A DNA stretch of 64,000 nucleotides from Micractinium sp. NFX-FRZ. Its lineage: Eukaryota > Chlorophyta > Trebouxiophyceae > Chlorellales > Chlorellaceae. Of this stretch, positions 2,699 through 47,600 are shown piece by piece; position 1 is the first letter of the stretch, and every line of letters starts with the position of its first letter. Below the pieces are notes generated by a model. That model was given only the letters and a program-made list of their open reading frames with translations, made no database searches and was not told where the DNA came from. The DNA is taken from the NCBI GenBank assembly GCA_029339195.1, contig JAPTJF010000064.1, positions 124,001 to 188,000 on the forward strand, in the 5' to 3' direction. A program made the position numbers and the translations under genes.

Positions 2699-5369
2699 CT
2701 ACCATGGTGACCACCCCGCGGCTGCCAGCACGCGCACCGGCAAGGCGGGGTGGTGCTTTGCTGCACGCTGTGCCAGGTGGCGCCGGCTGGCTGCAGCTCG
2801 CTGCGCTGGTTGCACAAGTGCCTCTGCTGCCTCCCGCTCCTCCGCCGCCAATCGTGCCCATTGGTTGATGTAACATGCGCGCTTTTCGCTGGCTACTTTC
2901 CCTGGGAAGTGAACCAGGAAGTCGCCCTGGACCCAGGGTTGGCCCTCGGGCACCCCACACCCATAAGAATTGAAGTCCTTGTTGGGAATCACCTTGACAC
3001 GTGCTGCCAGCGCAGGCTGCTGCCGCAGCATCTCCATCAGCGCTGCCTGCTCCCACCAGACCTTCGGCTCCGCGTTTGGGCGTGAGTACTGTTCAGCCAG
3101 CAGCGCCTGGGTCCACTGCCCGCTCCGCAGCAGCATCGATCCGGTGTTGATGCCGTTTGAGTCCCGGCCCACCACCACGTCATACCCCTCGTCTATGAAC
3201 TTGGCCAAAGGGACCGAGCTGTTCATGATGATTGTGTCGGAGTCAACAAGCCAAAGCCAGTCGTACTGCTGCAGCAGAGACAAGGCCACAGGCAGCTGCG
3301 CGAAGGGGGGCGGGGGGGAGATGGAGGGGTGGGGGGTGGGGGGGGAAGGGGGCGGGGTCAATGAGGTCAGAGGTGGGGTGGAGCGTAAGGCGAACAGGGC
3401 ACAGGGCAGCCAGGCAGTGTGAGCAAGGCAAGGCAGCGGTCCACCTGCCCTCCTTGCCTCGAGACCCCGTTCTCCTGCGTCCCGCCCCCGCATTGGTGCT
3501 TCCTCACACTCACCCATGCAAGCATCTGCTTCCCTGCCACACAGCCGCACCACCACCCTCCCCCTGCCCTCTCCAGCACCACCACCCCAACCCGCCCCAC
3601 CTTGCACCAGGCGCCATGGCGACCACAAGCGGGGGTCTCCACATGAAAGCCGTACCCGTGGCGCTCAGCATACAGTCGCTTGTTGGCCAGGGAGAGGTAG
3701 GAGTCGGACTTGTTGCCGCTGTTCATCATTAAGATGCCTGCTAGGAGGCAGGGAGCCAGGGAGGCAGAGAGGCAGGGAGGCAGGGAGTAAGGAGCAATGG
3801 GGGGGTACACCGGGGTTGCAGGGAGGCAGGGAGTAGGGAGCAATGGGAGCGTGCACCGGGATGGCGGGGGGGTTAAAGTCTTGCACCACTGCTGCTGATC
3901 GTCATGATGCCTGCGCGCTGTGGGTTGGACGGAGGGAGGAGGAGAGGCACCAAGGAGAGAAGGGGGGAGGGAGGGGCGCAGAACAGGGGGGGCTGCACAC
4001 ACAGGCGGAGGAAGGGGGGGAGGGGGGGAGGGGGAAGGGGCGAGCATGTTATGGACCAGCTAGGAACGAGGCCACAGAGGCAGAGGACAGGAGGCAGGTT
4101 CCTTGCTCTATGCCTGCCTGCCTGCCTGCCCCACCCCTGCCCCGCACCACCGCACCGCACTCGCCTACAAGTGGCTGCCGCGCCCCGGCCCTGCCGCGGG
4201 TGCGGCACGCCGCCTGCTGCGGCCCCGGCGGGCACACGCTGCAGTGCAGGTCGTGCCCCGCTGCTTGCCGCCCCGTCAGCTTGCGCTCTGTGAGCTGGTC
4301 CAGTGCGGGCAGGATGAGCGAAAGGTTGCGCTGCACGCCAACTGCCGCCGCTGCTGCTGCCGCTGCTGCTGCCTCTCGTGCGGGTGCATCCCCCCTTGGG
4401 AGGGCATCCTCCAGGCCTAGCAGGACACCCAAGCTGGCTGGGTAGGGCTCTCCAGGCGCAGGCAGGTGCAGCTCTGGCCCATGTGCACTGCTCTGTCCAG
4501 CTGGCTGCGGGCTGCCGGGTGGCGGGGCTGCCAGGAAGTCGCACTTCTCTAGGAAGTCGAGGAGGCTGCGCCAGGTGGCACCCGGCAGCTGCAGCGCTGG
4601 CAGCTGCTCAGCTGCCGGCAGTGCGTGTGCACGCTGCCCTGCTGGCGCGCTGGCTCTGCTGTGCGTGTCGTGCCCATCTTCTCGTGGCAGCTGCTGTGCC
4701 TTGGCGCGGTCTCCACTGTCCGGCTCCGCTGTCGCTGCTGCTGTTGGGGCTCTGGGCGATGCTGCTGCTGGGGCCCTGGGAGCTGGCTTGCTGCCGCCGG
4801 TGCTGAGCTCGCCACCCTCGCCTGCTACCGCCGCAGGGGTCAGCTGCTGCATCAACGTGCCACATGCAGAGGAGTGGTGTTAGCATTGGAACACGAGTGT
4901 TCAGGTGTGGGACGACACCCCCCAGGCCCTCCTCCAGTTCCCGAGTGGCGCCCGCCTTGGCAGCGCGCCTGCTGACGTTGCCAGCGGCACCACAGACCGT
5001 CTGCTGCCCTGCCCTTCCTGCTCACCAGCCCTTGAGCGGCGTGCAACGCGCTCCCTTCCCCTGCTCCCCAGGGCACGCCACTTGTGGTTGCACTCGCGCT
5101 GCAAGGGGTTGGGCATACAGGCAACATCAACAATGGACGGTCAGGGTGCTGCCAGTGGCGCTTACCACCAAAGCAGGAACGTTCCTTGATGCACCACATA
5201 GTAAGCACTGCCGCCATCAAAGTCACAGTCAGGAAGGAAAGCGGGACGGACGGACAGACGGAAGCTGTCGGCACCTGAGCAGCACCACGAGCGCAGTGAC
5301 CAACGAAACCAGCAGGAGCTGGCGCCATGGGTTGGGGGGGACAGCTGCCCATGCCTTGCTTGCCACGAT
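2699..5369 (-). CDS. GT34-type (GMA12/MNN10) galactosyl/xylosyltransferase
   Basis: Strong exons, in coding order: 4846-4156, 3737-3601 and 3295-2699 (TAG), joining to 475 codons including the stop. The catalytic part has NKRLYAERHGYGF, then GAWCK, then WLVDSDTIIMN with the DxD metal and sugar-nucleotide site, then NTGSMLLRSGQW and a C-terminal HFPGK. This order is that of GT34 enzymes (yeast GMA12/MNN10, plant xyloglucan xylosyltransferases), which act in the Golgi lumen. The 4846-4156 exon encodes a long Ala/Pro-rich stem. A separate upstream segment, 5369-5275, encodes WRQLLLVSLVTALVVLLR, a good type II signal anchor, but I could not join it in phase, so the 5' end is unresolved. A 24-base micro-exon at 3910-3887 could be inserted without changing frame. 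I think it is a decayed copy of the start of the 3737 exon (see findings). Confidence 0.82.
3881..3912 (-). repeat. Decayed copy of GT34 exon start, or 8-residue micro-exon
   Basis: The minus strand has an acceptor-like CGCAG followed by a segment encoding GIMTISSS and a GTGCAA donor. It resembles the real exon start at 3737 (GILMMNSG) and is phase-neutral (24 bases). Flanking CT-rich sequence is also duplicated between 3741 and 3885. Confidence 0.5.
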
Positions 5370-6037
5370 CTGAAAGGTAGACAGGGGCGGCGGGGGGCGG
5401 CACAAGTGGCCGAGTGCAAGGAATGATGTGCATGCACGCGGAACTGCACAACCAAGCAGTGCGTGGCGGCGGCGGCGGCAGCGGCGGCAGCGGCCGCAAC
5501 CACTGGGCAGATACCACGGAGGTTGCATTTCCGTGACCGCCGTTCGCCGCTTCATCCACATGCCAGTCCCGTTCGCCACAGCCACAGCGTGTAAAGCTGC
5601 AGCTCAGGCCAAGGCCCTTGCACGACCGGCACGCCTGGCCTCAACCTCTGTGCTCCTTTGACAACACACGCTTAAATCTCACCGCCTTCATCGCGGTAGG
5701 CTGCCGCCACGCATCAAAGCGCGCCATGGGACATTTGCCGCTCTGTTCTGAGCTCCCCCTTAGTCTTCTGGCAGTGTGCTGTGGACTTGAATTGCCGCTC
5801 CGGTGGGGTTGGACGGCGGCGGTCGTGCGGCATGCACCGCATGAAGTGGCCACCACCACCACCGCCCCGCTGTGCGCCGCCACCCTCTGCCAGCGGCCCA
5901 CCATGTCGGCAGCCATCCTGGTTTGGGATCGCCTCCATGCGGCCTATACATCCTTAAAACCATGTTTTCATTCTGTCTGGCCTCTTCCCTGCTATTGCGC
6001 TGGCCGCCTGCCTCGCTCTCGTCAGCTGGCCCCACCT

Positions 6038-22549: not shown

Positions 22550-25500
22550 ATGCGGGGCTTGGTCGAGGCGCTGGGCCCGCTGGATAGTATTGACGCGCTC
22601 CACGCGCGGCTGGCGCAGTGCCAGGCGCAGCTGCTCAGCGGCTCTGGCGGTGGCGGTGGCGGCGGCGGCGGGGATGGCGGCGCTGCAGCGGCTGCTGCAG
22701 CACTACTGCGGGCAGAGGAGGGGCTCACGCCTGAGATGAAAGTCATCTTTGTCGTCACCTCCGTGTTCCTGGTCATCTTTGCGGGCATGATGGCAGGGCT
22801 GACGCTGGGCCTGCTGTCTCTGGACAAGTGAGGCGGGCGGGCGGGCGGGGGGGCAGGAGAGCAGGCGGGCGGGCGGGCAGGCAGGAGAGCAGGTGGGCGG
22901 GCGGGCAGGCAGGAGAGCGGGCGGGCGGGCGGGCACAGATGGGGAGGCGGCAAGCGGCGGACAGCCAGCGGGGCGGTGCATCTCGACACCGCGCTCCTGC
23001 CAGCCATCCACGTCCGGGCGTGGGCCCGCTGCAGCCTGCACCCGAGGAGCAGCCTGTTGTATCCACCCCACCTTCTGGCCGGGCACCCTTGGCCAGCAGA
23101 GCCGCGACCACTCACACGCCCCCCTGCCCTGCGGCACACGCGCACCTTGAACCACAATTGATCCGTCTCCTCCGACCCGCTGGCCCCTCCCAACACCTCA
23201 CCCGCTGGCTGCTTGTAGCTGGGTGGCCGGCTAGGGCGCACGTCGTGGTGCCCACTCCAGCCCACATTGTGGCAACGCCATCGCCGTGTTGCTCAGTCAA
23301 ATGTCTCACCAAGTCCAGTCATCATGCCTGGGGTGCGCCCTTTCCTATGTGTGGGTGCAGGGTGGACCTGGAGGTGATCAAGCGCAGCGGCACACCGAGG
23401 GAGGTGTGGCTCGTGGAGCGGGTCGAGCCGGTGAGTGCTGCCTAAGTGCTTCCAATATCTGAGGGGAAGGCACAGAAGAAGGGTACAGCTTACATGTGTA
23501 GCATGCCGATGCGAGCACGAGCCACCGCTGTTTGTTGCACAAGGCTGCCCCTTGCTTCCTCCCCTGGGAACGGCGCAGAGTAAGTGTGCAGCGTACGAGG
23601 CAAGTGTGGCCTAACCAGCAAGCACAAGCTTCCCTGTGTGAAGCAAGGGCATGATGCAAACACCAGCCGCCCCTGTGCGTTGTGTGCACACAGCAAAGCA
23701 CGGGACGCCCCCTGTGTGGTAGCACGTACAGCTGGAGTCGCCCATGCGCCTGCATTACGTGCACGCGGCGCCCCCACTCTGCACCCCGCCTCCCCCGCAC
23801 TCTGCTTACTTGGCAGGTGCTGGCGCGCCCGCACTACCTGCTGGCCACGCTGCTGCTGTGCAACGCTGGCGCCATGGAGGCGCTGCCCCTCTTCCTGGAC
23901 AGGCTGCTCAACCCCGTGGCCGCCATACTGCTGTCTGGTGAGCCGCTTGTACTGCTGTCTGGTGAGACCCTTGCACTGCTGTCTGGTGAGCTGCTTGTAC
24001 TAGGCCGTCAAGTGAGCCGCTTGTACGCTTGCTGTCTGGTGAGCCCCTGGTACTCCTGTCAACTTGGCTTCTCCAGATCAGCGCTGGGGGTGTGGAGGCG
24101 CTTGTCAAACCCTGTGGCAGTTCCGCCCTGCTGTTGGATCAGTGCGATGCTGCCAGCAAGGCGGGGCAGCTGGGTGGTGGGTGGGTGGGTGGGTGGGGGC
24201 CTGGCCTCTCCTTCAGGGCTGCCTGCTGAACGCTGTGGCCGCCGTCCTGTTGTTTGGTGGCCCCTTGTGCTGCTGTTTGCCTGGTGCTCTGTCCCCAACC
24301 TGCAGTGGGAGTCCCAATTTGCACAAGGAGTGTGTGGGGAGTGCCAAACAACCCGATCCTCCCTTGCCCCCCTCCCTCTCCCCCTCTCTCAGTGTCGGCC
24401 ATCCTGATTTTCGGCGAGATCGTGCCACAGGCGGTGTGCAAGCGCTACGGCCTGCAGGCACGCCCTATGCCGCCCGGCGCGAGTGCTGCCTGGAGAGCTG
24501 CCGCCACGCAACCGCCCCTGCTTCCCTGCCGCCCTGCCCCGCCCTGCCCTCCTCTGCCCCGCCCCGCCCTGCCCAGCCCTGCCCAGCCCTGCCCAGCTAT
24601 GCATGTACACCTCACAAAATTTGCGTCTTGACCCCTTTACAATGTCTGCTTTCCTGCCTCGCAGGTGGGTGCCTACCTGTCTTGGTTTGTCCGCTTCCTC
24701 ATGCTCCTCACCGCCGGCATCACATGGCCCATCGGTGAGAGCACCTAGACTGTTACTCACAATACACTCAAAGCTGTGTTCTTCACAAGCAGACGTCTTG
24801 TCAGGGTCGGTTGGCCCCTGTGTGTGCGCTGCCTCGTGCTGCTCCCTACCGCTGGCATCACCCGGCCCATCGAGCACAGCCCCCTGGTAAACCCTTCCAG
24901 GGTGCCCAACCTCAGGCAAGATGCTGGGCTGGGTTGTGGGGAAGGTGCGGCGCAGTTGCAACCTTCGAACCTTTCCAGCCCGACCCTTGCTGCCCTGTGT
25001 GTCCGGCTGCCTGCCCTTTTGTGGTGCAGGCAAGCTGCTGGACTGGATTCTGGGGGAGGAGAGCGCGCTGTTCAAGCGGCGTGAGCTCAAGGCGCTCGTC
25101 TCCATGCACGCAGAGCCGGCGGTGGGTGGGACCGGCGGTGGGTGGGAGTCGAAGCAGGCAAAAGGGCGGGCTGCAACAGCAAACCTTGGTGTGGGGGCAG
25201 GGCGGGGCGCATGCGCTCAAGGCGCTGGTCTCCATGCACGCAGAGCCGGCGGTGGGTGGGAGTCAAAGCGGGCAGAGGGGTCTGGGTACGACAGCACGCC
25301 GTGGTGCAGGCGGGGGCGCCGTGAGCTCAAGGCATGGGTGTCTATGCTTGCAGAGGTGGCAGTATTATGTGAGTGTTTCAGGTCTGGGGGTGCTGTAATG
25401 GTGGTGGTGGTGGTGGTGGTGTGTGGGTGGTGGCAGCTCAAGGCACGGATGCCCACGCACGCAAACCTGCGGACATTCAGGCTGGTAGGGCAACGCGCGC

Positions 25501-28500
25501 AAGCGTCAGTCAACACACAAGAGGCTTTGCCTATCCAGACTCGCTGCTGGCCCTCCTGTCCCTTACCTCTGTGTGGGCGCAGGAGGATGGGGAGCAGTCG
25601 ACGCTGACCGCAGACGAAGCGCAGGTGGGATGCAGCAGCGGCTGTGCATCCCCTCCCGCCGTGCCAGCTGGCACAGCACTGCCAATCACAATGCACCGTT
25701 CTGCTTGCCGTGGCGATGGGGCTGCTGCCTGCACTTGCCGTCCCTTGTCCGCTTGCCTGCCGCCACCTCCTGGGCACCGTGTCCCGTTGCCCGCTCCGGT
25801 CGTGCCCCACCCCTTCCCTTCTCAACTGTTCTCCCTGCTTCCTACCCCCCTCCTGCTGCTCCCACCCGCCCGCCTGGCGCCAGGTCATCCAAGGCGCGCT
25901 CGACATGGCCAGCAAGACTGCTGAGTCCGCGATGACGCCCATTGGCAAGGTGGGTGCTGCGCTGCGCTCCGTTCTTCTCCTCCCGACTCTGCTCTGCCTC
26001 TCTCCCTCCCCATCCCTTCCTCCCTGTCCGCCTCCCCCTGCCTTTCCCTCTGAGCTGCTGCTTGCCCAGGTGCCTACCCGCCCCTTCCCTGACGTACCCT
26101 CTTGTTCCCCCTCCAACATCGCTTTGCTGCCTGCCAGGTGTTTATGATTTCCTCGGAGGCTGAGATCAACGACGAGCTGCTGCTGGCAATCCTGGAGCGC
26201 GGGCACAGCCGGCTGCCGGTGTACGAGGGGAGCAACAAGCAGGTGGGGCCGTTTTTGTGTGTGGCTTGCTGCCGTGCCATGCTGCTGCTGGGGCGTTTGC
26301 TGTGGGGGTTGCTGCCGTGCCGTGCTGCTGCCATTGATCGGAGGTAGTCCAATGAGGTGTTAGCAGGTGGGTGAGGGGCGGGGGTGGGTGCGAGGGAGGA
26401 GGTGGCATGCATGCAGGGCGGCCGGGTGTGGAGGGCTGCTGGAACAGTAATGAAGGAACAAACAAGCAATCATGGCATAGAGGCCCCAGGGCCGAGTATC
26501 TGAGTGGGCACGAGCCACCCCTTGTGACCACAGAACATCGTGGGCCTGGTGCTGGTGAAAGAGCTGCTGCTGGTGGACGAGGACGCTGGTGTCAAGATTC
26601 GTGACCTGCGCCTGCGGGAGCTGCCCTTCATGAGGTAAGGTCCAGGAGGGTGAAGTATGTATGGGCGGGGGGCGAGCGCGGGGCGGGAAGGCGTGGGAGG
26701 GGCAGAAGGGCGTGGGGTGGGGGTGTGTGTGTGAAGAGGTTTATTTGGCGCCTGCAAGAGCGGTCAGCCGTGACGCGGCAGAAGGGGTGGACCACTGTAC
26801 ACTGGGTGGGGTTGCAGGGCGCACCTGGTGCAGGCGCACCGCAGGCAAGTGCTTGGTTTGGGGACGCCAGGCATTCTGGTTTTAAGCTGCGACACCGAAC
26901 GTAGCAGAGCTGGCGCCACCGGCGCACCGCCCGTTCCTGCACCGCCGGCAGCGCCCACAACACGCACGCCTCACCTCGCCACCTCCCACCGGTAGCTCCG
27001 GCTTCCCTGTGCCCGCTGCGCCCGCTGTGCCCGCCCGCTGTGCTGCTCCGGCACCACCGGCTGCTCTCACCTCCCTGTCCCCGCTGTGCCCGCTGTGCCC
27101 CTGCTGTGCCCGCTGTGCAGCTCCGGCACCATGCTGTACGACGTGCTCAAGGTGTTCCGCTACGGGCGCTCCCACATGGCCTGCCTGACGCAGCGCGGGG
27201 AGACGGGGCGGGTGGAGGTGCGGGGCGGGGGGGGTGTGCACAGGGATGGGCTCCAGGAGAGGAGGTGGCCATGGGTGGAAGCGGCCTGAACAGCACTCCA
27301 GCTCCAGCCCTTGCCCTACGCATGCGCTGCCTGGCTGTCACATGGCCCTGCCTGGCGCAGTCCGGGGGCAGCGCTGCGGGGGGTCACCTGCACATGCTCC
27401 TGCAGGCTGCACGCCTAAGCATGCCTGCCTTGTGTCCTGTTCCTGCTGTCCTCCCAGAACTCCCCACACTTTCTCCGTTCCCATCTCTTCGCTCACTGTA
27501 GTGGGCATCATCACGGATGGGGCTGTGCCGGAGGAGCCGTTGCAGCCTGACACCCCACACCCACCGCTGCATGTACCGCCCTGCCTCACTCCTCACTGCC
27601 TCAACCGTGCACCGCCACCTGTACCGCCACAGGTTGTGGGTGTCATCAAGCTTAGGGATGGGTCGCTGGAGCTGCTGCAGCACGGGGCTCACACACCCAC
27701 CGCTGCATGTACTGCACCGCCCCAATCCTGTACCGCCACCTGTACTGCCGCAGGTTGTGGGCGTCATCACGATTGAGGATGTGCTGGAGGAGCTGCTGCA
27801 GCAGGAGATTGTGGATGAAACCGACCAGTGTGAGTGGAAGTCAGCATTGCACGGGGGAAGCTCCGCCCCCCCCATGGGATGGGGTGGGGAGGTGCGAGGT
27901 ACGAGCTGGCGCAATGTGTCGCTCCGCCGGCAGCACGACTCCCGGCTGCGCAGTGCCGCTGCGCTGCCAGCAGCCCACACGCCCCAACCCCTCCCTCTGC
28001 CCGCCCTCCCTCCCGCAGACGTGGACAACCTCCAGACCGTCAAGACCAGCACCCTCAACTCCCTGCAGCAGCTGCCCGCCAACCTCCGAGGCTTCCTCAC
28101 CCGCAGCCTCATTGTCACCGCCCCCGAGCGGGCCGCCGCCAGCCGTTCAGTGGCAGAGCTCGACACGATAGCTGCCAGCGTGGGGGCAGCAGCTGCTGCT
28201 GCTGCTGTGACCTCGGTTGGCGCCACTGCACACAGCCCGCGTGCCGTCGCCGCTGCCGCCGCCACGTCTGCGCTGGTGGCGGCGCGGCGCGCCACCGCCG
28301 CCGGCGGCAGCTCCCCCACCAAACAGCCGCAGCTGCTGGCTTCTTCCCTGGCCTCTCCCGCCAAAACGGCAGCAGCCGGAGCAGCACGCGAGGCGGCGAG
28401 GGAGGCACGGGAGGCAGCACTGGAAGCAGCCCCCGCCGCCGGCTCCAGCGCCCCCCAGCTGAGCGGCGGCAGCGGCAGCTCCCAGGCTGCTCTGGCGCTG

Positions 28501-28755
28501 GCTCGGGACAAGCCGCCTGTGCCCCGGCGCACCTCCTCCTCCCGCAGCCTGCGGGCAAAGCTGGGGGATGTGTACCGGCAGAGTTCGGGCGCTCTGAGGC
28601 AGCCCCTGCTGGAGTCTGAGCAGGAAGGCGAGGGGGTACCGGCGCCCGGGGCCTGGCACGGCTCCTGGCACGCTGCGCACGCTGAGGCGGAGGCGCAGCA
28701 CGCAGAGGAGGCGCAGCACACAGAGGAGGCGCAGCACGCGGCGGCGGCAGATTGA
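22550..28755 (+). CDS. CNNM/CorC-type membrane protein, DUF21 plus CBS pair
   Basis: Thirteen exons: 22550-22827, 23361-23430, 23816-23937, 24394-24457, 24665-24734, 25030-25121, 25583-25624, 25884-25949, 26138-26242, 26534-26634, 27121-27217, 27754-27829 and 28019-28755, giving 639 residues. DUF21 spans about 60-230: a first membrane helix ending GLTLGLLSLDKVDLEVIKRS, then LLLCNAGAMEALPLFLDR, ILIFGEIVPQAVCKRYGLQ and KLLDWILG. Next come LTADEAQVIQGALDMASK, AMTP and the CBS pair (about 270-395: GHSRLPVY, NIVGLVLVKELL, VVGVITIEDVLEELLQ). The tail (395-639) is Ala/Ser-rich and disordered. Plant and animal relatives are linked to Mg2+ or other divalent-cation transport at plasma, vacuolar or plastid membranes. 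The fourth intron seems to start GC (CAG|GCACGC). The frame after the stop (28760-29050) has the same composition, so the true C terminus may extend there through an unseen splice or a frameshift. Confidence 0.93.
23927..24290 (+). repeat. Tandem donor-site repeats and decayed exon copies in a CNNM intron
   Basis: The exon end at 23937 (CTGCTGTCTG|GTGAGCCGCTTG) is followed by about four further 24-base units, most with CTGTCTGGTGAG. Longer degraded copies of the exon end then follow near 24090-24150 and 24215-24290 (the latter matches the stretch encoding LLNPVAAILL). Confidence 0.85.
24797..24895 (+). repeat. Decayed copy of CNNM exon 24665-24734
   Basis: It aligns with the whole preceding exon. 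The end encodes LLPTAGITRPIE against the real LMLLTAGITWPI, but the donor is lost. Confidence 0.85.
25205..25485 (+). repeat. Three copies of the exon end encoding ELKALVSMHAEPA
   Basis: The exon end at 25085-25121 plus its GTGGGTGGGA donor context is repeated almost exactly at 25213-25262. More decayed copies follow near 25325-25370 and 25436-25480. The first copy was used in the gene model. The second copy is good enough that alternative splicing is conceivable. Confidence 0.88.
26985..27062 (+). repeat. Decayed copies of the CNNM exon start at 27121
   Basis: The exon begins GCAG|CTCCGGCACCATGCTG. Partial copies GTAGCTCCGGCTTCCC (26992 on) and GCTGCTCCGGCACCACCGG (27040 on) precede it in the intron. 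Confidence 0.7.
27498..27720 (+). repeat. Two decayed copies of the second-CBS exon start
   Basis: The functional exon starts at 27754 with VVGVITIEDVLEELLQ. Upstream, about 27500-27545 encodes VGIITDGAVPEEPLQ and 27634-27690 encodes VVGVIKLRDGSLELLQ, the latter with an intact CCACAG acceptor. The shared CACACCCACCGCTGCATGTA flank shows that the unit includes intron sequence. Confidence 0.88.
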
Positions 28756-36200: not shown

Positions 36201-38596
36201 AGGCACAGCCACACCGGCAGCCTGCCGCTGGCGGCGCCGTCGGCGGCGCCTGCGCCGCTGCCAAAGGCGGCGGGCGCATCGGGGAAGGCGGCCAGGTTCT
36301 CAAACTCCAGGGGGGAGCAGTCCAGCATGACGCCCTGCGGGCACAGCACGGCACAGCATGGCACAGCATGGCATGAGGGTATATCACGGGGTGCGGGAGC
36401 AGTCGTGCGGTCACGGCGTGGCGCAGCAGGGACGGCACAGCACAGCACAGCGTGCTGCGTATGATGAGAGGGTGCATGTCGCCCTGCGGGTGCAGGCAGA
36501 GCAGCAGGTGGCACAGCACGCCGCACTGGTGCCCCGCCAAGAGAGCGAGCGGAAGGCGGTGCGGCAGCTGCTTGGGGCGGCGGGCAGCTGTCGAGTTGCG
36601 GGGCTGCGGTGCGCTCTAGACAGATGGCCCCTTCTCGGCTTCCTCCTCGGTGCACCACACCATGCTGTGCCCGCCTGGTGCAGCATTCATCACACACACA
36701 CACACATCATACAAGAGCCATCAAGCATTAGGGCCCCACCTGGTGAGGGCGGTTGTCTGCAATCATGTTGAGGTCGTGCTTGGAGGCGTACGCCACGCGG
36801 GCGCCCAGCTCCTCGGCCCGCCGCTTCACCGCCTGGATGGCGCCCTTGTCCTGCACGACGGGGGCCCAGGTGCGGGGCGGTTGCCGGTGCATGCAATACG
36901 TGAGTGTGTGTGTGTGGGTGTGTGTAGGGCCGGTGGGCTTGGGCAGGCGGCGCGTTGCCAGCTGGCCAGGCTCCCAGAATTCTTTCACCGGGAGCCCCAG
37001 ACCTCAGGAGGCACTGCTAGCTGCCTGAAATCGGGACCCCGCCTTCCACATTTCGCTACGCAAGGCCCACGCTTTCAGCAGGCACAGCAAGCCGCCACTG
37101 CGCAGCACCAACCTACCCACCTGCCCAGCCCCACCCGCCCCGCACAACCACCCACCCGTCCAGCGCGCCCACCCACCCATCTGTCAACCCGTCCAGCTCC
37201 CGCACAGTGAAAGAATGGTAGATTTCAAACAGTCCTGTGGGCTGAGCCTGCAGGCGCAGCGGGTGCACCATGCACCATGCACCCCCCAGCCAGCCAGCCA
37301 TTTGGAAAGCCAAGAAAGCTCTTGCACCCACCTTTCGCTTGGCCAGGTCCATCCCATCTTGCAGGTACAGCGTGTGCACCTCCCGCCTCCCCGCCTGCAG
37401 CGCTGCCAGCACCGGGCTCACGCCGTAAAGCACATCGCCTATCCAGAACTCGCGCAGGCCGCCGCCGCCGCCGCTGCCGTACGCGTCGCCGTCGGCACCC
37501 TCGCCGTCGCCGCCTGCACGTGCCCCCTCCCAAGCCTCGCCGTCCGCCTCATCCCAGCTACCACGCCCCCGGCCTGCACCACGTGCCCGATCCTCAGACT
37601 GCCAGCCGCCGCCACGCCCGCCGCGCCCGCCGCGCTGCTCGTACCTGCCGCGCCGCTCATACCCCCCGCTGCCGCCCCGCTGCTCATAGCCGCCGCCGCC
37701 GCCGCCGCGTGCCTCAAACCCGCCGCGCCTCTCGTACCCGCCGCCGCCGCCCCGCTGCTCATAGCCACCGCCATCGACGCGCTTCTCATACCCACCGCCG
37801 CCGCCGCGCTGCTCATAGCCACCGCGCCTCTCGTAGCCGCTGCCGCCGCCCCGCTGCTCGTACCCACCGCGCTTCTCGTATGCGCTGCCACCGCTGCTGC
37901 TGCTGTTCCAGGTTCGGCCCCTGCTCTCGTCACGCCCAGAGCTGCCGCCGGTGCCCCAGGACGCGCCGGCATCGCGGCTGCCACGGCCTCTGCCGCCGCT
38001 ACCACGCTCCCGCCACTCTCCACCACCGCCACGCTCCCGCCACTCTCCACCGTCACGCCCACGCCCCTCCCCACCGCCGCGCTCCCGCCGCTCCCCGCCG
38101 CCACGCTCACGCCACTCCCCGCTGCTGCGCTCCTGCCGCTCCCCACCCGGTCTGGTGCTGCCGCCTTCGGGCGAGCCGCCCTCGCCTGGCGCACCATCTG
38201 CGGTGCTCAGCCAGCCACTGCTGCTGCTGCTGCCACTGCTGGGGCTGCCACCTTTGACGTCCCAGTCATCGCCCCACACACTGGCAGGCTCGTCAGCGCG
38301 CTCGCGGCCTCCCCTGCCGCCGCCGCGCTCGCGCCTGCCGCCGCCGCCGCCGCCGCCCCGCCACCCCTCTGCTGCCGCCCGGGTGCTGGCTGACCGCCCG
38401 ATGTCGGTTGCCGGCATGGCCAGACCGCTGCGCAGTGAGTGCCGAGCGGCTGCAGGCGCGAGAAAAGCAGGAGGGAGGGCTGGGGTTCGTCCCGAAAGAG
38501 TGCGCACAATGCATGTGGCAAGGAAGCACCACCTGGCTCACCTCTGCACACCCCGCCAGCCAGACGGCAGCCCTGCTGCACTATCCACGGCTGCAT
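33205..38596 (-). CDS. SpoU/TrmH rRNA 2'-O-methyltransferase (MRM1-like) with RGG domain
   Basis: Seven exons in coding order: 38596-38542, 38449-37332, 36850-36740, 36334-36182, 35356-35211, 33982-33799 and 33390-33205, total 650 residues. The N terminus ([16 protein letters not shown], then [14 protein letters not shown]) looks like an organelle targeting peptide. Residues about 50-335 are Gly/Arg/Glu-rich, with many [17 protein letters not shown] units. The enzyme part follows: [14 protein letters not shown] (substrate-binding domain), [34 protein letters not shown] (motif 1), [12 protein letters not shown] (motif 2) and [15 protein letters not shown] (motif 3, part of the trefoil knot that binds SAM). 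Family members methylate the ribose of guanosine in large-subunit rRNA, in mitochondria (MRM1) or plastids. The RGG domain is not typical of the family. Introns hold decayed exon-end copies. The start lies only about 150 bases from the stop of the GNAT gene. Confidence 0.94.
34060..34255 (-). repeat. Decayed copies of a TrmH-gene exon 5' start
   Basis: The exon start at 33982 ([13 protein letters not shown] with acceptor GTGCAG) is matched by DNA at about 34067-34120 ([11 protein letters not shown], acceptor CTGCAG). A weaker match lies near 34205-34255. Confidence 0.85.
34970..35135 (-). repeat. Decayed copies of a TrmH-gene exon 3' end plus donor
   Basis: The real exon end and donor (CCACCAA|GTGAGG, at 35211) recur near 34972-35015, with GGTGGAGTGCACCGGCA-like sequence. 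They recur again, more decayed, near 35080-35125 with the GCAAGCCCyAGACA flank. Confidence 0.8.
35405..35512 (+). repeat. 33-bp minisatellite, about 3 copies
   Basis: The unit contains AGCATGGCAGGGCGGCAGG. It lies in the intron upstream of the 35356 exon of the rRNA methyltransferase gene. Confidence 0.85.
35850..36180 (-). repeat. Three decayed copies of the exon end encoding CLDEVMDP
   Basis: The exon end (GGACGAGGTGATGGACCCG|GTGAGCC on the minus strand, 36182) recurs near 36079-36110 with a GTAAGCC donor, and again near 35969-35996 and 35862-35884. Spacing is about 85-110 bases. Confidence 0.85.
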
Positions 38597-44600: not shown

Positions 44601-47600
44601 GGACGTTGCACAGCGGGGGTGCCCGCGCCGTCACCGCCCCATGGACCCAACCATCCACCGCCGCCATGGGCAGGGTGGAGGCCCCCGAGTACAGGTGGCA
44701 CCTGCTACCGGCCTCCTCATATGCAAAATACTCACACTGGTCCATGCCGCCGCTGCGCCCCGCTGCCCGGGTGCCGTAACAGATGTCGCAGCAGGATTGG
44801 ATCGACTCCTCTCCCAGCATGAGGCTGACGATGAGCACGTCCGGGCTGGACACCCCGCCCTCCAGCACGTCGCAGGCGGCGGGGGGCTCGGTGAAGGGGC
44901 CCTCTGCCAGAGGCTCCTTGGCCCAGCCCCACAGCTCGCCTGCAGGGGCGGGACAGGGAAGGGGGGAGATGAGGAAGGAGAGGGCTGGATGGGTTGCTGC
45001 TCAATCAATCAATCAATAATATTTGAACTCCATGGGGAGCCAGCAGCGGTGCTGAATCTAATGGTGGGCAGGCGGGTGGGTGAGTGGTTGGGCGGCAGCA
45101 GGCAAGCAGGCAGCAGGCAGGCAGCAGGCAGGCGGGCGCTGGCAGGTGGGCCGCTCCCCCGCACCTGGCGAGTTGCTGGGGACGGTGCAAGTGCCAGAAA
45201 AGGCGCCGCCGTAGAGCCGGCACTCGCCGGTGAGAGAGGTGTAGCCCCACACAACGCAGCCGGGGGTGCGGGTGCACACGCTGCAGCACACCATGGGTGA
45301 TGGCCCCACTCTGGCTTGCCGGATGAAGCGCAGGCCGGGGCTGGCGCACGAACCAGTGAACATGCGGCAGGCTGGTGGTGGGCCGGGGCCCACGCGCCCC
45401 AGCGCCCAGCCCGCCGGAGAGAGGGAGAGCACAGAGGAGTTGCCCGTGTAGAGGCGGCAGGTGCCCGATGCTTGGTCAAACGCCCAATACTCGCAGGTTT
45501 CGGAGGGGTGGGTATAGCAGAGGTCGCAGCAGGCCTGGCTGCTGGCGTCTTGCACCGTGACGGAGGTCAGCTGCAGCCGCTGGAAGCTCTGGGAGACGGG
45601 GAGGCACGCCTGGACTGGAGGCGGCGACAGCGGCGGCGGCGGTGGCGGAAAGGGGCTGGGCGGAGGCGGGGAGGGCTGTGGCGGAAAGGGGCTGGGTGGA
45701 GGCGGCGAGGGACGCGGTGGGAAGGGGCTGGGTGGAGGCGGCGACGGCGGCGGGGGTGAGGGGCTGGGCGGAGGCGGCGACGGCGGTGGTGGTGAGGGGC
45801 TGGGTGGAGGTGGGGAGGGTGGCGGTGGGGAGGGGCTGGGTGGAGGAGGGGAGGGCGGTGGTGGGGAGGGGCTCGGGGGAGGTGGGGAGGGCGGTGGGGG
45901 TGAGGGGCTGGGCGGAGGCGGCGAGGGAGGCGGTGGAGAGGGGCTGGGTGGCAGTGGGGAAGGAGGCGGTGGGGAGGGGCTGGGTGGAGGAGGGGAGGGC
46001 GGCGGTGGAGAGGGGCTGGGTGGTGGTGGGGAGGGCGGCGGTGGAGAGGGGCTGGGCGGAGGCGGCGACGGCGGCGGTGGAGAGGGGCTTGGAGGAGGTG
46101 GGGAGGGCGGCGGGGGCGGCGATGGCGCCAGGAACTGCGGCAGTTGGTGGCAGTGCATGGAGGGACTCAGAGGCCCATTAAATTCCTGAGTGTGTGGTTG
46201 AAGCAGCCAGCTGTTGCGGATGCACACCCAAGGGCTGAACTCACCCTACTGGCTGGCCGCATCCCCGTTCACTGCTCTGCACCAATGAAGGCGACCACCT
46301 ACGCCCGCTGCACGTGTGGAGCCCTTCCGCCCCTCACAACCAACCCACTCACCACATCAATGGAGGCTGCTGCCCTGGAAACAAGGCCTGGCTGATTGGC
46401 ATCTCCATAGAGGCAAATAAAGGAGCGGAAGGTGGCTGCGGCGCCACTCAGCAGCGCCTCTTCAAGTTGGAACTCGTAAGTGGCTGCAGGAGGGGGCGAG
46501 GTGGGGGCAGGGCTGGTGAGGGGTCGGTCGGCGAGCAGGCGGGGCGGTGGTGAGGGGGCCTGGGTGGCTGGGCGGAGCACAGAGGGGCCAGGGCAGCCGA
46601 GGTGCGGGCGGTGCACAAGTATCCGGCTCCTTGGTGACGCACCCTGCTAGTCACAATGCCTGCATTTGTGCATGCCAGCGTTCTAAACAACCCCACACTT
46701 CTTCTCTGCGAACCATGTGTCTTCCTAAAGCCGCATGAAGCAGCTGCCAGCCTGGCCCACGCTGGCACGCAGCTGCCAGCATGGCACGTGCTGGCTGGAG
46801 CGTGGCTGAGCCCACCTTCATACAACTGGGTGGCAGGGTCCCATGTCACGCTGACTGCACGGCGGGACAAGGCAGGGATGTATTGCCAACACGGTAAGAG
46901 ATGCGCGGGACGCCCCGGCGGCGCCGGCTTGCCCGCCCTTGGCCACACCCCAGGCATGTCTGGCACCCCACACTGCTGCCGAGCCCAACAAGGAGCAGGA
47001 CACCTGCCAGGCCGGCCACCTGGCACCCGTGGCGCTTTGCGCGGTGGCACATTGCGATCCACCATACACAGCTGTCGCCACGTGTGCCACGTCCCCATGC
47101 TGCCCTGCGGCCAGCCCACCCACCTGGCAGCACTATTGGCTCGCTTGCATTGAGGTCGGTGCTCCCGCAGGAGGTGATGCCGCAGGTGATCACCTAAGAG
47201 AAATGAAGTGAGGCAGGGCAGGCAGATGAAAGCCTGCCCGTCGCTGGTTCTGGCTTGCAAGTGCAAACAGCGGTGAAACTGTGAGCGTAACAGCAGGCAG
47301 GGCGCGAATGGGGCGGCATGTGGGCGGCGGCGGCGTGCTTGATGGCGCTTCGTGAACGGCAGGCAGGCAGGCATGCAGACGTGGCATGCAGGCAGCCGCC
47401 GCCGCAGCCGTCACAGCCGTTGCCGACGCAGCCACAGCAGCAGGCGGGCTCAGTCGGCAGCCTACCCTGCTCACCTGGGCAGGCCAGTTGTGTGGCTCCA
47501 GCAAGGCGTGCCTCCCTTTGATGCCGCACTTGGCCACAACCTGTGGGGTTGGGAGCGGTCGCATGTTTGATTGACTGTCACATTGATCGTGGGGAAGGGG

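Follow-up and report, generated by a model that had tools for sequence, protein, structure and literature searches.

Introns of a CNNM-type gene in the green alga Micractinium sp. NFX-FRZ contain partial, decayed copies of the exon ends that adjoin them, and copies of the same kind occur in introns of other genes of this genome. The gene lies in a 64,000-nt stretch that we refer to as the window (positions 124,001 to 188,000 of contig JAPTJF010000064.1, assembly GCA_029339195.1, which comprises 66 Mb in 838 contigs). The copies are in direct orientation, sit in the intron next to their source, follow a rule of direction (3′ ends are copied into the downstream intron, 5′ starts into the upstream one), are found in many genes, and decay without visible coding constraint. 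The CNNM-type gene is one of several genes that bear many such duplication scars. We consider them to be, probably, traces of neutral intron growth by short, local, direct duplications that have recurred.

Exon-End Copies in the CNNM-Type Gene

The gene model is as follows.

22550..28755, + strand: CNNM-type gene, 13 exons and 12 introns, 639 aa, frame open across every junction
22550-22827, 23361-23430, 23817-23937, 24393-24457, 24665-24734, 25030-25121, 25583-25624, + strand: exons 1-7
25884-25949, 26138-26242, 26534-26634, 27121-27217, 27754-27829, 28019 to the stop after codon 639, + strand: exons 8-13

The predicted protein has matches to the Pfam CNNM transmembrane domain and to CBS, and the proteins closest to it come from Micractinium tetrahymenae (69% identity), Chlorella sorokiniana (68%), and C. 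vulgaris (59%), in keeping with a host in or near the Chlorellaceae. The first of these, P0001, matches 12 of the 13 exons in one stretch each, the 42-nt exon 7 being left unmatched. When searched against the genome, P0001 gives 20 matches, 12 at this locus, six on contig C321, and two on contig C191, and we take the loci on C321 and C191 to be putative CNNM paralogues. A self-trained gene finder recovers all 13 exons, but the CNNM gene had seeded its training. It adds a single exon, 25201-25251, which corresponds to the first copy of the exon 6 3′ end listed below. Exon 4 has a GC donor (CTGCAG|gcacgc, 24452-24463).

Each exon (exon 13 cut at 28230) was aligned locally to each intron, and the scores were compared with those of 200 dinucleotide shuffles. 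Matches between introns and exons stand above background: six of the 24 adjacent exon-intron pairs exceed all 200 shuffles, with scores of 35-71, and the top score among the 132 non-adjacent pairs is 32. Because the six significant pairs are exon 3/intron 3, exon 5/intron 5, exon 6/intron 5, exon 6/intron 6, exon 11/intron 11, and exon 12/intron 11, the affected introns are four of the 12 (3, 5, 6, and 11). The copies and related features are these.

23926..24060, + strand: 24-nt tandem array of the exon 3 end with its donor (CTGCTGTCTG|GTGAG), 5.4 copies, from tandem-repeat finding
24067..24102, + strand: weaker copy of the exon 3 interior (source 23849-23884), 72% identity, score below 26 and outside the shuffle test
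24194..24256, + strand: copy of the exon 3 3′ end (source 23875-23937) that terminates at the donor, 47/64 identical
24820..24872, + strand: copy of the last 50 nt only of exon 5, 42/53, exceeding all 200 shuffles
24916..24957, + strand: copy of the exon 6 start with the AG retained, 114 nt upstream of exon 6, 34/43
25209..25251, + strand: first copy of the exon 6 3′ end with donor, 40/43, readable as part of an in-frame 51-nt exon at 25201-25251
25316..25355, + strand: second copy of the exon 6 3′ end, 31/40
25435..25463, + strand: possible weak third copy of the exon 6 3′ end, 29 nt, 76% identical to the second copy, score against the exon below 26
27046..27056, + strand: claimed copy of the exon 11 start, an 11-nt match between two 9-nt CTGTGCCCG repeat tracts, not significant
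27339..27367, + strand: partial copy of exon 11 (source 27173-27200), 17 nt short of the junction, 25/29
27498..27546, + strand: copy of the exon 12 start, 40/49, acceptor AG out of register (CT there)
27633..27682, + strand: second copy of the exon 12 start with the acceptor region, 121 nt upstream, 40/50 (89 nt at 81%)

A reading of the window made from its letters alone (the sequence-only reading) had claimed at least five introns with such copies. Four of them hold; the fifth, with supposed copies of the exon 11 start before 27121, falls away, as the best match there is the 11-nt one and its score is reached by 9% of 200 shuffles. The tandem donor units that had been seen after 23937 and the two exon 12 copies before 27754 are both borne out. 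What had been described as a full exon copy at 24797-24895 is a genuine copy reduced to the last 50 nt of exon 5, and its junction reads CCCATCG|AGCAC where that of the exon reads CCCATCG|GTGAGAGCAC. Three copies had been placed after 25121, and two are clear, the third being only weak. That reading had passed over the exon 3 copies at 24194-24256 and 24067-24102, the exon 6 start at 24916-24957, and the exon 11 copy at 27339-27367. Its claim that copies decay with distance is correct for intron 6. In intron 11 the near and far copies are equally similar to their source over the exon part, although the far copy has more diverged flanks. We note that at 25116-25147 the exon 6 donor (CCGGCGGTGGGTGGGA) stands twice side by side in perfect 16-nt copies, and use of the second would shift the frame.

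Exon-End Copies across the Genome

The survey covered the window and twenty 10-kb stretches at fixed positions on twenty other long contigs, 264 kb of one genome in all. Gene models were those of the self-trained gene finder, which are partly unverified; they comprise 73 genes and 426 introns, 408 of which are flanked on both sides. A copy was counted at a score of at least 34 after a complexity filter, with exon queries of at most 100 nt. Outside the CNNM gene, a copy of an adjoining exon end is present in 28 of 395 introns, compared with 0/3144 for introns of other genes and 1/2488 for non-adjacent introns of the same gene. When the score is lowered to 30, the adjoining introns give 31/395, vs 9/3144 and 5/2488 for the two controls. 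With the CNNM gene included, there are 37 exon-end copies in 31 of the 408 introns, spread over 12 of the 73 predicted genes, and so the pattern, first described for one gene, is not confined to it.

The copies are clustered by gene: the 12 genes compare with 23 under length-weighted random placement, and none of 5000 simulations was as clustered. Introns with copies number 1/71 below 150 nt, 6/151 and 14/149 in the intermediate length classes, and 10/36 above 400 nt. Altogether, 967 of 84358 predicted coding nucleotides (1.1%) have a copy in the adjoining intron, and in other genes two short copies, of 23 and 26 nt, match their source perfectly. A scan of seven of the 11 other affected genes gave a Pfam family over the cut-off for each (Amino_oxidase, ODP, AMP-binding, MatE, ribosomal S5, Pex16, and flavodoxin).

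The densest case seen is the first of two adjacent, oppositely oriented genes at locus L002 (G000:C1:50001-60000), with exon-end copies in 7 of its 10 introns; its neighbor has them in 3 of 12. We take this pair, with Pfam ODP and flavodoxin, to be flavodiiron-like. At locus L009, a predicted AMP-binding protein, presumably acetyl-CoA synthetase-like, contains the direct repeat GVDYDDELKKEL-GVDYDDKLKKEL, which may be either a copy misread as coding or a real in-frame duplication. Of the putative CNNM paralogues, the one on C321 has no junction copy at score 34. The one on C191 (L043, G000:C191:44001-52000) has an array at 4926-5534 in which four copies of the acceptor and exon start, at 4926, 5048, 5170, and 5283, precede the exon at 5403. 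The steps are 113-122 nt, CAG is retained in all five units, and the array is spaced like single copies; neighboring units are alike beyond the exon part, and similarity does not decay by distance. Elsewhere in the window lie a 36-nt tandem array of 13 copies (45638-46113) and several overlapping GCC-rich arrays (37618-38147).

Direction, Orientation, and Location

Copies derive from the adjoining exon end and mostly reach the splice junction, 29 of 37 coming within 6 nt of the exon end, whereas uniform placement would give 4.9. Among exons ≥130 nt long, 3′ ends are found in the downstream intron in 11/172 cases and in the reverse placement in 0/172; 5′ starts are found in the upstream intron in 11/185 cases and in the reverse placement in 0/185. 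The rule of direction that had been read from the CNNM gene thus extends across the sample, 22 to 0. It would be due in part to geometry and selection, since a duplication across a junction would be harmful unless the exon-proximal copy remained the one used.

Orientation was assessed with 60-nt windows, for each of which a copy was sought within the next 600 nt. Direct copies were found for 110 of 3144 intron windows, 39 of 1044 junction windows, 30 of 2076 exon windows, 28 of 1188 mixed windows, and 11 of 3009 intergenic windows. The corresponding inverted copies number 0, 0, 1, 0, and 2. The lack of any inverted local copy among the 4188 intron and junction windows led us to reject templated insertion in both orientations. 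When the CNNM gene is excluded, 96 of 3010 intron windows and 33 of 1009 junction windows still have a direct copy. The near equality of the junction and pure intron windows does not support the notion, implied by the sequence-only reading, that junctions are a special target by number.

Local direct copies are ∼nine to ten times commoner in introns and at junctions than in predicted intergenic DNA, where "intergenic" means not predicted as gene and may include UTRs, promoters, and missed genes. Resampling by region gives 1.9-5.1% of windows for introns and 0.1-0.6% for intergenic DNA, and a stricter ungapped count gives six pairs wholly within intergenic sequence (70.5 kb) vs 53 intron-only or junction pairs (109 kb of intron).

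Offsets, Blocks, and Spacers

The offsets of the exon-end copies range from 89 to 319 nt; 29 of 37 fall at 89-143 nt and none is shorter than 89 nt. A second method, based on ungapped matching, yielded 53 junction and 57 intron-only events. At offsets of 30-87 and 88-145 nt there are 5 and 33 junction events, vs 22 and 14 intron-only events (p = 2.6e-5, Fisher). This split is unchanged with a minimum intron of 25 instead of 50 nt in the gene finder, and the idea that the gap is an artefact of the 50-nt minimum was dropped. The Fisher test overstates the contrast since by geometry alone a longer unit is more likely to span a junction. A placement simulation that corrects for this, with uniform duplications, decay, and the same detection, predicts from the intron-only counts ∼13.6 junction events at 30-87 nt and ∼12.4 at 88-145 nt (detected ratios 409/664 and 722/815). 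Observed junction events are in ∼2.7-fold excess at 88-145 nt and in deficit at 30-87 nt. Offsets of at least 146 nt (14 junction, 2 intron-only), some of them multiples within arrays, lie outside this comparison. Event counts vary between sets because the window and match thresholds differ; a stricter set gives short/long counts of 8/27 for junction and 15/7 for intron-only events. The 2.5th percentile of predicted intron length is 80-84 nt and the 5th is 91-97 nt, so the lower edge of the offsets lies close to the shortest introns. Such an edge would fit junction duplications that are tolerated only if the unit has complete splicing signals.

When aligned, the well-preserved copies match their source in a block that surrounds the junction, and the sequence to either side of it is unrelated. 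At 88-145 nt, a spacer of 27-90 nt parts block and source in 18 of 27 junction events, the blocks measuring 27-102 nt. Contiguity, judged by gapped extension, is seen in 27 of 36 intron-only events vs 15 of 45 junction events (p = 0.0003); for offsets of 60-250 nt only, the counts are 10/18 and 9/38 (p = 0.033). Spacers above 20 nt are present in 23 of 37 junction events without the CNNM gene and in 17 of 28 without both this gene and L002. Two spacers, that of intron 5 and one other, were queried against the 66-Mb genome with a tool that skips very common words and matched only themselves, and a mobile-element origin of the spacers was rejected on these two queries.

These results raise the question of whether duplication is linked to the junction itself, with junction blocks copied into the intron beyond a spacer of ∼27-90 nt by way of splicing, transcription, or RNA templates, and with a growth step near minimal intron length. 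We regard this as unlikely. The offsets, with none below 89 nt, the short/long split, the excess over simulated uniform placement, and the lower contiguity of junction events all favor it, as do the intron-length percentiles (∼80-97 nt from the 2.5th to the 5th) and the enrichment of introns over intergenic DNA. However, junction windows are hit no oftener than intron windows. Exon-derived copies also stay visible longer, as one partner is conserved, and the simulation models this roughly. Exons ending in AG, which one splicing-based model needs, are not enriched (7 of 13 donor copies vs 205 of 408 overall), the events are clustered in few genes and are not independent, and intron-only events are spaced as well in 9 of 36 cases. 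A genome-wide form of it, a splice-junction-anchored spaced duplication of direct blocks of ∼27-102 nt with spacers of ∼27-90 nt and growth steps of ∼90-140 nt (about the length of a minimal intron) that may be coupled to transcription or splicing, seems to us quite unlikely. Recursive splicing via a copied AG|GT was rejected on the AG counts just given and on exon starts with GT (3 of 14 acceptor copies vs 63 of 408), counts compared without a formal test.

It also appears improbable that ordinary contiguous tandem duplication and minisatellite slippage suffice, the spacer then being the faster-decaying intron half of an old unit. Most intron-only events are indeed contiguous, several junction arrays are contiguous at offsets of 97-123 nt, and the 24-nt donor array is of this kind. 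In simulated differential decay of contiguous duplications, a spacer above 20 nt appeared in 42% of cases at a per-copy divergence of 0.25-0.35, and the explanation could be saved by a decay model that allows large indels in introns. The 42% is reached in that range only, however; the simulated frequency is 8% of 2523 detected cases overall and 1-5% at divergence below 0.20, vs the 18 of 27 observed. In addition, some copies are 92-100% identical in their exon part, yet their flanks are unrelated.

Signs of Use or Neutral Decay

Mismatches in the exon copies are even over the three codon positions (64/66/59 of 473/472/469, p = 0.83), and no frame is favored by the offsets (11/15/11 for remainders 0/1/2 modulo 3). 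These two observations make the copies look like neutral debris and not like alternative exons. Of 13 donor copies, 10 retain the splice dinucleotide, as do 10 of 14 acceptor copies (GT/GC or AG in 20 of 27 in total), roughly the share expected at 86-88% identity.

We consider it very doubtful that the copies serve to diversify the protein, be it as alternative or mutually exclusive exons or as alternative splice sites. The 51-nt segment at 25201-25251 is an open, in-frame candidate cassette exon with AG and GT present, the gene finder reads three of the four acceptor-side copies of the C191 paralogue as 33-39-nt exons, and only one of 37 aligned copies has an in-frame stop. On the other hand, besides the even mismatches and the lack of frame preference, the copies are partial (20-67 nt of exon), and the copied splice sites are weaker on average than the real ones (donor 1.0 vs 5.9, acceptor 3.5 vs 7.5). 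In the three closest relatives' proteins, no insert at the copy sites exceeds two residues. A long insert near the exon 11-12 boundary does occur in the more distant P0004 and P0013; it is lacking in the closer relatives and in the window gene. We therefore rejected functional exons as a general account on the mismatches, the frames, and the relatives' proteins, and some copies, such as 25201-25251, may nevertheless be spliced in.

Chance, low complexity, or assembly error is hardly credible even in this GC-rich region with many simple repeats, as the controls are near zero after the complexity filter, the intron 6 region matches the genome only once, and a divergence of 7-27% from the source shows that the tested CNNM copies are not misassembled duplicates.

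A Proposed Model of Intron Growth

Neutral growth by recurring local duplication, the explanation we favor, would proceed as follows. Introns would lengthen through repeated short, local duplications in direct orientation. Where a junction falls within a duplicated block (in the spaced cases ∼27-102 nt long), splicing would go on using the copy closest to the exon body; the inner copy would become intron and decay as other intron sequence does. Some junctions would be duplicated again or expanded into arrays with a unit of ∼100-125 nt; arrays such as that of C191 may have begun as a spaced pair that later expanded by recombination between copies. The open frames and the relatives' proteins suggest that the exon-proximal splice site is the one used, and duplication appears to have added length to existing introns, as the sequence-only reading had proposed. 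A step of DNA repair or replication probably lies behind the duplications, and the candidates for the molecular event are a contiguous duplication, a duplication with filler, and local copying into a break.

Several observations sit uneasily with this model. Junction events number 33 vs ∼12 expected at 88-145 nt and 5 vs ∼14 at 30-87 nt, and the elementary event would often not be a plain tandem duplication, because spacers above 20 nt are found in 18 of 27 events vs 8% of simulated ones. The scarcity of local copies in intergenic DNA (11 of 3009 windows) is not predicted by a neutral process acting genome-wide. The insert of P0004 and P0013 sits near intron 11, which carries copies. Finally, the use of the proximal site and the direction of change are presumed from the sequence of one genome.

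Most of what is said about intron growth is deduced from length statistics. Here some of the added sequence can still be recognized, thanks to the conservation of one partner, the exon. Decayed fragments of the neighboring exon edges appear to make up part of some introns of this 66-Mb algal genome. Should relatives confirm this, the copies would provide a countable record of intron growth, which could address the size and structure of insertion that splicing tolerates and the balance of duplication between introns and intergenic DNA. Such copies may also mislead gene finders into calling exons, as happened at 25201-25251 and in the C191 paralogue.

Relation to Known Systems

The kind of event, local direct duplication over junctions, is known. 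For the pattern, genome-wide junction copies inside introns, no description was found in the literature searched, most subscription papers being outside it. PMC3443670, which cites Gao and Lynch 2009 and Hellsten 2011, and PMC2891723 treat tandem duplication as a route of intron gain, and PMC4974935, on potato RdRp, describes a tandem duplication across an intron-exon boundary as well as an 83-bp duplication inside an intron. Our copies resemble intron gain of this type (PMC4974935, PMC3443670) in being local direct duplications that cross the intron-exon boundary and take the splice signals along. They differ in that existing introns appear to be lengthened and that the copies are usually separated by a spacer. 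A Rogers-type new intron, formed between two AG|GT copies, would be as long as the offset; offsets here are 89-319 nt and introns 103-1228 nt, the two are equal in 0 of 37 cases, and this origin was rejected. One pair in the + strand gene of L002 comes near to this geometry, with an offset of 115 nt and an intron of 103 nt. Introner elements, a family shared by many introns, are likewise not supported, as the three queries tried (the intron 6 region, the intron 5 spacer, and one other spacer) match only themselves in the 66 Mb with a tool that skips very common words.

According to PMC9013439, exonic nucleotides with a homolog in their own gene at ≥80% identity amount to ∼2% in human, 0.08% in fly, and 0.06% in worm. 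The methods differ, and our 1.1% is therefore comparable with these figures in order of magnitude only. Tandem and mutually exclusive exons, as presented there, share with our copies the presence of exon homologs within the gene (PMC9013439). Here, only exon ends are copied, without visible coding constraint, in contrast to the constrained copies of whole exons expected of mutually exclusive or cassette tandem exons, which we rejected because the copies are partial and their mismatches even. The donor-bearing array at 23926-24060 is similar to the minisatellite of the human 6-16 gene, which offers several splice donors. Unlike that minisatellite, it is one feature of the CNNM gene, whose other copies are larger and decayed.

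In PMC8355091, small tandem duplications that arise when breaks or nicks are repaired are called the most common short insertions in the human genome, and work in rice on the same topic is cited (Vaughn and Bennetzen 2014). The copies are like these break-repair duplications in being short, direct, and local (PMC8355091). Unlike the tandem products described there, most junction copies are not contiguous with their source. Taken as local tandem duplications, our events are direct in orientation and lie at an adjacent locus, and contiguity itself is found for 27 of 36 intron-only and 15 of 45 junction events.

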